Source: Mesotoga infera (lineage in GTDB: Bacteria > Thermotogota > Thermotogae > Petrotogales > Kosmotogaceae). From it: a DNA stretch of 64,000 nucleotides. The stretch spans positions 868,001-932,000 of the forward strand of contig NZ_LS974202.1 of assembly GCF_900157305.1 (NCBI RefSeq), given 5' to 3'. The notes under the pieces were generated by a model. That model did not search any database, had not been told where the DNA came from, and worked only from the letters and a program-made list of their open reading frames with translations. Shown here one piece after another: positions 21,931 through 23,317 of this stretch (position 1 is its first letter; each line of letters starts with the position of its first letter). Both the position numbers and the translations under genes were made by a program.

Positions 21931-22449
21931 TCAAGCAGGGAATTTAAAACCGCATTTGTCGCAGAATCTGGCCTCAGAATCGTTCTGTTCGCCACAATCG
22001 GGGCATTTCTTGTCTTTTCTCAGAGTTGTGCCGCAGTTTTTGCAGAATCTCGAATCCGAAGCGTTCATAGTCCCGCATTTCTGACACACGACCTTTGCCC
22101 CTTCGGACTCGGAAATCCCTTCCTTTATGGATCTTGCGATAGTCCTTACACTATCCTTCGTTCCTTCGGCCATATAGTTAATGGTGTCTTTAGCTACCGG
22201 CGCAAGTTCGTTGGCCTTGTACCTTGCTACCGCTCCCATGAACCCATAGCTGGTCGCTATAACTCCCAGAAAGATAAAAGGGATCGCCAGGAAGAAAAGA
22301 TAGAACTTATCCGGCTGCCCGAACGAACCGAAAGCGCTGAAGAAATCTACCATGGCAATTATAAGAATGACCACACCTATAAAAATGAAGAGCGGTCCTG
22401 CAATCCTCAAAATACTCCTCATGCTACTGTTTTTTCCGCTAACAGACAT
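21931..22449 (-). CDS. Membrane protein with C-terminal zinc ribbons
   Basis: Encodes 172 residues from ATG 22449, which has AAAGGAG upstream. Two membrane helices lie near residues 20-75 (GPLFIFIGVVILIIAMVDFF and FYLFFLAIPFIFLGVIATSY). The C-terminal third carries four CxxC-type half sites (VCQKCGTMNASDSRFCKNCG and KCPDCGEQNDSEARFCDKCG), two zinc ribbons of the DZANK/zinc-ribbon-15 type. Function unknown; not obviously linked to NagA upstream. Confidence 0.8.
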   Translation of the reverse strand: MSVSGKNSSMRSILRIAGPLFIFIGVVILIIAMVDFFSAFGSFGQPDKFYLFFLAIPFIFLGVIATSYGFMGAVARYKANELAPVAKDTINYMAEGTKDSVRTIARSIKEGISESEGAKVVCQKCGTMNASDSRFCKNCGTTLRKDKKCPDCGEQNDSEARFCDKCGFKFPA

Positions 22450-22550
22450 ATCTCGAACTCCTTTCAAAAAATATCGAAAACGGTACAAAATATCGGCCTC
22501 TAGGGGCCGTTCTCTTCACCAGTATATCCATATCTTTCCACAATGTCTCC

Positions 22551-22593
22551 AAAAAAAGAAGACCCTCTAGAAAGTTATGGAAAAAGGGTCTTC
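22551..22593 (-). terminator. Intrinsic terminator of the five-micro-gene operon
   Basis: GAAGACCCT and its exact complement form a nine-base stem (22558-22566 with 22585-22593). On the minus strand seven T follow at once (22557-22551). This is the best kind of rho-independent terminator and defines the 3' end of the micro-gene transcript. Confidence 0.9.
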
Positions 22594-22636
22594 GTTTATC
22601 TAATAACGCTCCTGTTTGATTTTTTCAATTCACACG

Positions 22637-22666
22637 CCTCGCCTTCTAATCAGCTGTGAGGCGAGG
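22637..22666 (-). other. Hairpin over the stop codon of the last micro-gene
   Basis: CCTCGCCT (22659-22666 read on the minus strand) and its exact complement (22637-22644) form an eight-base stem around a 14-base loop that contains the stop codon of the last micro-gene. No T run follows. It may stabilise the message or influence termination of translation. Confidence 0.55.
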
Positions 22667-22748
22667 ACATGTATCTCTTAATCGCATCGATCTTCACTTT
22701 CTCGATCATCATGTCCACGTCTGCCAAATTTCTTATTCTTCTTATCAT
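22650..22748 (-). CDS. Micro-gene 5: 32-residue basic peptide of a tandem family
   Basis: ATG at 22748 follows GGGAGGTG at eight bases; stop TGA at 22652. The peptide begins MIRRIRNLADVDMMIEKVKI and ends KRYMSSPHS, net charge about +3, no Cys. From its residue 10 it aligns without gaps to micro-gene 4 (DVDMMIEKVK against DIDRMVLKVR; SP shared near the end), nine identities in 23. No signal peptide or known domain. Last coding unit before the terminator; the family is not recognised. Confidence 0.8.
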   Translation of the reverse strand: MIRRIRNLADVDMMIEKVKIDAIKRYMSSPHS

Positions 22749-22773
22749 CGAGTACACCTCCCTTTCAGTAATA

Positions 22774-22866
22774 TCAGAACCTGGGGCTTACCATCAGACT
22801 GCTGTATGCACTTTCTCTTACCTTAAGAACCATTCTGTCGATATCCTTCAAACTTCTCCTTCTCAT
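22774..22866 (-). CDS. Micro-gene 4: 30-residue basic peptide of a tandem family
   Basis: ATG at 22866 follows GAGGAGGAG; stop TGA at 22776. It begins MRRRSLKDIDRMVLKVRES and ends SSLMVSPRF, net charge about +5. It is the closest relative of micro-gene 3: 11 identities in the last 23 residues, including the shared SSLM and PRF, plus conservative I/V, K/R and D/E changes. An amphipathic helix from residue 8 to 26 is likely. It lies 25 bases before micro-gene 5. Confidence 0.82.
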   Translation of the reverse strand: MRRRSLKDIDRMVLKVRESAYSSLMVSPRF

Positions 22867-22907
22867 ATTCTCTCCTCCTCTTTTATTCCCTTATTTGTAC
22901 TCTCTTT

Positions 22908-23009
22908 TCAGAATCTCGGGTTGATCATCAGGCTGCTCAACACGCTGTCTCTTTCACTCTCGATCAACTTGTCAATCGCCCTGAAACTCTTCTTCTCTCT
23001 TTTAGACAT
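22908..23009 (-). CDS. Micro-gene 3: 33-residue basic peptide of a tandem family
   Basis: ATG at 23009 follows AAGGAGGAG; stop TGA at 22910. It begins MSKREKKSFRAIDKLIESE and ends SSLMINPRF, net charge about +3. The N-terminus resembles micro-gene 2 (MNKREKK), the C-terminus micro-gene 4, so it links the family. No transmembrane stretch, leader or Cys. It is 41 bases before micro-gene 4. Confidence 0.82.
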   Translation of the reverse strand: MSKREKKSFRAIDKLIESERDSVLSSLMINPRF

Positions 23010-23037
23010 GATCCTTCTCCTCCTTTTCAGCCCTTTC

Positions 23038-23139
23038 TCATCTGATGTTCATCATTTTTGCCCTTAACGAATCTTCTTTCACGATTTCTACATAACGATC
23101 CATTTCATGGTAGTGCACTTTCTTCTCTCTCTTGTTCAT
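23038..23139 (-). CDS. Micro-gene 2: 33-residue basic peptide of a tandem family
   Basis: ATG at 23139 follows AAAAGGAGGTGA, a near-perfect complement to the 16S rRNA end; stop TGA at 23040. It begins MNKREKKVHYHEMDRYVEI and ends MMNIR, net charge about +3. It shares MxKREKK with micro-gene 3, and the core MDRYVEIVKED matches the IDRMVLKVRES core of micro-gene 4. Three His/Tyr residues near position 10 are peculiar to it. Confidence 0.82.
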   Translation of the reverse strand: MNKREKKVHYHEMDRYVEIVKEDSLRAKMMNIR

Positions 23140-23154
23140 CTTCCTCACCTCCTT

Positions 23155-23247
23155 TTACAGATAATGTGGGAAGGCTTCTTTCTGTACTTTGATCTTGAAC
23201 TTCTGGATCTCTCTCTCGATCGACGCTGGATCTTTAATTTTTCTCAT
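23155..23247 (-). CDS. Micro-gene 1: 30-residue basic peptide of a tandem family
   Basis: ATG at 23247 follows GGGGGTGAGG; stop TAA at 23157, 15 bases before micro-gene 2. It begins MRKIKDPASIEREIQKFKI and ends AFPHYL, net charge about +4. It is the most divergent member: SIEREIQKFK lines up with the DIDRMVLKVR core but the tail differs. First gene after the promoter at 23317. Confidence 0.75.
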   Translation of the reverse strand: MRKIKDPASIEREIQKFKIKVQKEAFPHYL

Positions 23248-23287
23248 TTCCTCACCCCCTTTTTGTTATTTTTCCTTCGACATTCAT

Positions 23288-23317
23288 AATATATCACAAA
23301 GAATAATCAAATGTCAA
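23288..23317 (-). promoter_or_regulatory. Sigma-70 promoter of the micro-gene operon
   Basis: On the minus strand a perfect -35 TTGACA (23317-23312), an 18-base spacer and -10 TATATT (23293-23288) lie about 40 bases before micro-gene 1, in an AT-rich setting. An overlapping TATTAT (23291-23286) is an alternative -10. It is one of the best promoters in the window. Confidence 0.85.

Follow-up and report, generated by a model that had tools for sequence, protein, structure and literature searches.

The window, which is the whole stretch of 64,000 nucleotides of the Mesotoga infera genome that was analysed, carries on its minus strand an array of five tandem micro-ORFs. Judging by the substitutions among related genomes, all five encode proteins that purifying selection maintains. 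An operon that contains nothing but microprotein genes is seldom recognised. This array is a clean case: its signals are strong, it is under purifying selection, the number of units varies between genera, a duplicate is alike within its genome, and relatives occur at loci of two other kinds. It thus offers a defined and testable family for asking what proteins of 30 residues do, in a locus small enough to be deleted or expressed as a whole.

Layout of the array and evidence of coding

All the features of the array lie on the minus strand. Its frames are unit 1 at 23155..23247 (30 aa, MRKIKDPASIEREIQKFKIKVQKEAFPHYL), unit 2 at 23038..23139 (33 aa, MNKREKKVHYHEMDRYVEIVKEDSLRAKMMNIR), which is of the HY type, unit 3 at 22908..23009 (33 aa, MSKREKKSFRAIDKLIESERDSVLSSLMINPRF) and unit 4 at 22774..22866 (30 aa, MRRRSLKDIDRMVLKVRESAYSSLMVSPRF), which are both of the A type, and unit 5 at 22650..22748 (32 aa, MIRRIRNLADVDMMIEKVKIDAIKRYMSSPHS). 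The spacing between them is 15-41 bases and each is preceded by a strong, GGAGG/GGGGG-like ribosome site. The predicted promoter is found at 23288..23317 (TTGACA at 23317-23312, 18 bases, TATATT at 23293-23288), and an alignment of the regions upstream of ten copies in the genus shows no variation in its -10 element or in the ATGAATGT that comes after it. The predicted intrinsic terminator, at 22551..22593, has a stem of 9 bp, seven T and the loop TTCCATAACTTTC at 22582-22570. We therefore regard the five units as a single transcription unit, strongly promoted and strongly terminated, as far as such signals can be read from DNA. The preliminary description had already reported the five frames, their start codons, ribosome sites and spacing, both ends of the operon, and 11 identical positions between units 3 and 4, and all of these were found again.

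A scan of both strands for ORFs of 25-45 codons with a Shine-Dalgarno-like site returned 21 candidates in the window, with no chain of five apart from these units. The next longest among the chains listed were suffixes of this same array and none of the others had more than three members, while on the plus strand the same scan found no chain of SD-preceded micro-ORFs longer than one. Downstream of the array, at 21931-22488 on the minus strand, there is a gene for a membrane protein with a double zinc ribbon, which is not beside the array in more distant relatives.

A DNA search recovered the operon, whole or partly, from eight more genomes of the genus, at full length in four of them, and several of the partial matches stop at contig ends. 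The frames, their order and the ribosome sites are preserved among these copies. Furthermore, the dN/dS analysis that had been proposed as a check was carried out, and the substitution patterns across the genus support coding. The ratio was mostly 0.1-0.2 over all five units; summed over the units, the divergent pairs gave around 0.08-0.20, the third positions being the most changed, and the close pairs gave higher and noisier values (0.34-0.55).

Nevertheless, single units have decayed in some genomes. Unit 2 has a frameshift in G005 and is truncated in G008, the second copy of G001 carries a TAG within unit 3, and in G004 the ATG of unit 5 is lost. Stop codons and frameshifts in homologues, which the preliminary description had named as counter-evidence, are therefore present in individual units and absent from the array as a whole. 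The array is conserved as a whole and its individual units are partly dispensable, and this decay suggests redundancy.

The family and its other loci

Searching with a profile of all the units, we found relatives in 13 of the 103 genomes of the phylum, all of them within the window's own taxonomic family, and no family match at E<=0.01 in the 86 other Thermotogota genomes. The profile matches from outside the taxonomic family were mostly within long reading frames or had an E near chance; two of them (G084 and G090) were checked, proved to be inside a larger gene and were rejected.

Regarding the relationship between the units, we used profiles built solely from sister-genus units and 500 composition-matched shuffles as controls. 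Units 1, 3, 4 and 5 outscored all 500 shuffles on the A profile, and unit 2 scored above 498 of the 500 on this profile and above 500 of 500 on the HY profile, which means that the units belong to one family and are not mere look-alikes rich in lysine and glutamate. Thus, from their sequences, the five units share one ancestry and are related to the micro-operons of sister genera. The earlier proposal of a duplicated peptide family is supported, and the family is kept in related genomes. Unit 1 additionally has orthologues in the genus, and HY-type orthologues of unit 2 are present in those sister genera that have the family. The array of genus g3 has three units (two of the A type and one of the HY type), g4 has two separate loci with A + HY each, g2 has one A + HY pair, and a solo HY gene is also present in G015 and G016. 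The units had no significant match in Pfam, NCBIfam, PHROGs, PADLOC or PDB, and an Rfam search of the window and of twelve related loci gave no family fitting the operon.

Both g3 and the window's genus have one copy of the array close to nagA. In G001 the array is present a second time, complete, at another site, and the copies of G009, which are partial and at contig ends, are at the same two sites as those of G001, judged by their neighbours. Within one genome the similarity of the copies over the stretch compared is 95% and 97% (G001 and G009), whereas the units of these two species diverge far more. Such a pattern is compatible with gene conversion or with repeated duplication, and with selection for dose. 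Fragments of group II introns were seen near both copies of G001 (L055 7343-7462 and L056 8945-9064), and their orientation with respect to the operon differs between the two.

The second kind of locus is a solo member of 32 aa with its own putative promoter and terminator, located in the window's genome at G000:C1:806400; five other genomes have an orthologue of it or a likely one. Its neighbour is an ArsR-like gene in G000 (the window's genome), G003 and G012, in all three by tblastn, and apparently also in G016. In G000 and G003 it additionally adjoins a marR-ABC exporter operon. At four solo gene loci (L164, L182, L185 and L186) the -35 region is surrounded by CATCGAA-like boxes or by an inverted repeat, and C-rich stretches occur in or near the 3' region of the solo gene. 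We considered this C-rich element as a family-wide small RNA and rejected it, because the strict pattern is present in two genomes only.

Thirdly, in two sister species relatives directly precede ABC-2 exporter genes. In G011 a weak profile match led us to two micro-ORFs directly upstream of such an exporter (ATPase and permease), one of which outscores all the shuffles on the A profile. Most of the ABC-linked micro-ORFs are weakly similar to the window units, and in Mesotoga the last of them has the ending PHYL in common with unit 1. Upstream of the exporter there is a leader ORF of around 34 codons with a strong terminator after it (loci L144-L163; in the window's genome L150, at G000:C1:1406400-1410400). 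The leader ORF is partly complementary to the 5' arm of the terminator, with 7-12 contiguous pairs in six genomes of five lineages, and this pairing is kept despite different sequences. The arrangement looks like a translation-dependent attenuator, for which Rfam gave no match. Among the loci read, micro-ORFs between the attenuator and the exporter gene occur only in the window's family. More tandem micro-ORFs, of other sequence types, were observed between the attenuator and the ABC ATPase gene at L149-L155, three of which, in G013 (L155), have an SDF-x-x-Y ending in common.

Putative roles of the microproteins and of their transcript

The preliminary description had called the products basic, Cys-free and devoid of signal peptides, and this holds, with the refinement that they are clearly hydrophilic. 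Their net charge is +3 to +5, their pI 9.6-11.4 and their GRAVY -0.31 to -1.23; 34-45% of the residues are charged, Cys and Trp are absent from all five, and neither a signal peptide nor a transmembrane segment is visible in their sequences. They have in common a core, namely an acidic residue, I/V, D/E and R/K followed by I/V/L every 3-4 residues, and many members end in a basic-aromatic C-terminal tail (PRF, PxGF, PHYL, HYRF), although in Mesotoga the tails of units 2 and 5 deviate from this aromatic ending. AlphaFold2, from an alignment of five rows, predicts unit 3 as a single helix over residues 3-29 (mean pLDDT 84.7). The amphipathic moment was marginally higher than in shuffles for units 3 and 4 and otherwise not above them.

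We tentatively favour an operon dedicated to five paralogous helical microproteins that would bind and modulate a shared partner, a reading that we find plausible without calling it probable. The microproteins would be abundant and remain in the cytoplasm, each being a single basic helix or becoming helical on binding. Helix and tail would bind one common protein or RNA partner and modulate its activity, and the paralogues would supply dose and partial redundancy instead of building an obligate complex of five parts. A redundant dose fits both the decay of units and their varying number, from five in the window to three in g3 and two in g2 and g4. Furthermore, the relatives in a putatively attenuator-controlled operon of a drug-type ABC exporter, and those beside a transcription regulator, point to a partner from a circuit of stress response or gene regulation. 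Points against this reading are that most units are no more amphipathic than their shuffles, that some of the ABC-linked micro-ORFs have a weak relationship to the window units, and that units 2 and 5 of the genus lack the aromatic ending. Signal, antimicrobial, nucleic acid-binding and regulatory roles had been listed together before. Intracellular binding or regulation now appears the better candidate, while antimicrobial or exported products are disfavoured because of the lack of a conserved adjacent exporter or immunity gene, the strong hydrophilicity and the decay of frames. It had also been stated that no exporter adjoins the array, which is true here, although relatives in sister genera do occur in an ABC-exporter operon.

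The nearest analogy for such partner modulation is provided by the small DUF1127 proteins (YjiS type), which are basic. We know of no tandem arrays of them. Like the units, they are short, often with fewer than 50 residues, and have several paralogues per genome. However, the core motif of the units is another one, and no unit had a DUF1127 profile match in the Pfam scans. Small DUF1127 proteins act intracellularly by binding the sensor kinase PhoR (PMC12501420), and the size, charge and predicted helix of the units would be compatible with small binders of protein or RNA. The solo member recalls a different system, since in two genomes it sits between the marR-exporter operon and the ArsR-like gene. 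ArmR-type antirepressors are small helical peptides acting on a MarR regulator of an efflux pump; the window array differs in having no MarR-type gene beside it. A broader version, which we consider unlikely, would join the array, the regulator-adjacent solo genes and the attenuator-exporter members into one lineage-restricted microprotein system of helical proteins with 30-45 residues, a shared regulatory pool for stress or efflux control whose transcripts are possibly RNA regulators too.

The transcript might also have a dual function, its terminator loop or a pseudoknot of loop and tail controlling either the stability of the transcript itself or other RNAs, whether or not the peptides take part as well. 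The loop is invariant in all the copies of the genus and occurs a single time in the window's genome. At 22528..22539 on the minus strand, around 20 nt past the T run, there is a conserved tail, GGAAAGATATGG, that is complementary to it. All the sequences can pair at 10-11 of the 12 positions, which greatly exceeds the slid controls, and this pairing is a possible pseudoknot. The solo members likewise have C-rich 3' regions. However, the pairs show no covariation, nearly all of them being invariant, the tail is beyond the T run and hence reachable only by read-through, and no conserved terminator loop is found in the sister genera. As the codon substitution pattern moreover indicates selection on protein, we consider a role of the RNA quite unlikely.

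The favoured reading of partner-binding microproteins should also be weighed against a ribosomal one, in which the units replace part of bS21, a protein that the phylum lacks. Nearly all of the 101 relatives searched are without bS21, a single match being above the cut-off. Unit 1 of G005 matches PF01165 with an E of 0.0028, in register with the N-terminal part, and three variants of unit 1 outscore nearly all the shuffles on the S21 profile. Nevertheless, the likeness to bS21, that is, to its short basic N-terminal part, is weak and concerns unit 1 only. It is confined to the first half of the PF01165 profile and below the curated cut-off, the best score being 17.8 bits against a cut-off of 27, with one of 23 sequences matched. 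Unit 1 of the window is unremarkable on the S21 profile (33 of 500 shuffles are equally high), units 3, 4, 5 and HY have no match on it, and most Thermotogota are without both bS21 and the microprotein family, so such a replacement seems improbable. An origin of the whole family from bS21 was rejected by the shuffle test.

Regarding export, the array could be read as a leaderless bacteriocin of several peptides, exported to kill competitors. Aureocin A70 and garvicin KS consist of several cistrons for leaderless cationic peptides of around 30 residues (PMC6131525). The array likewise has tandem leaderless cationic genes within the usual range of about 27-34 residues, its units having 30-33 residues and +3 to +5 against 30-34 residues and +4 to +5 in those bacteriocins (PMC6131525), and relatives in sister species adjoin ABC-2 exporter genes. 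However, this exporter is kept across much of the phylum, including several families without micro-ORFs. The known bacteriocins, furthermore, have a positive GRAVY (+0.53 to +0.71 for aureocin A70; PMC6131525) and linked secretion and immunity genes, whereas the units are hydrophilic, at least one third of their residues being charged and many of these acidic, and no conserved exporter or immunity gene adjoins the array. The units had no match among viral contigs or in phage and plasmid collections either. Hydrophilic, basic products without Cys and Trp that are predicted as one helix argue against leaderless bacteriocins, and we find this possibility very improbable. Finally, secreted peptide signals of the quorum-sensing type would agree with units that are short, tandem and variable in number, but they have hardly any probability, given that there is no signal peptide and no conserved protease, receptor or exporter adjoining the array, and that conservation spans the whole length of the units instead of a short core.
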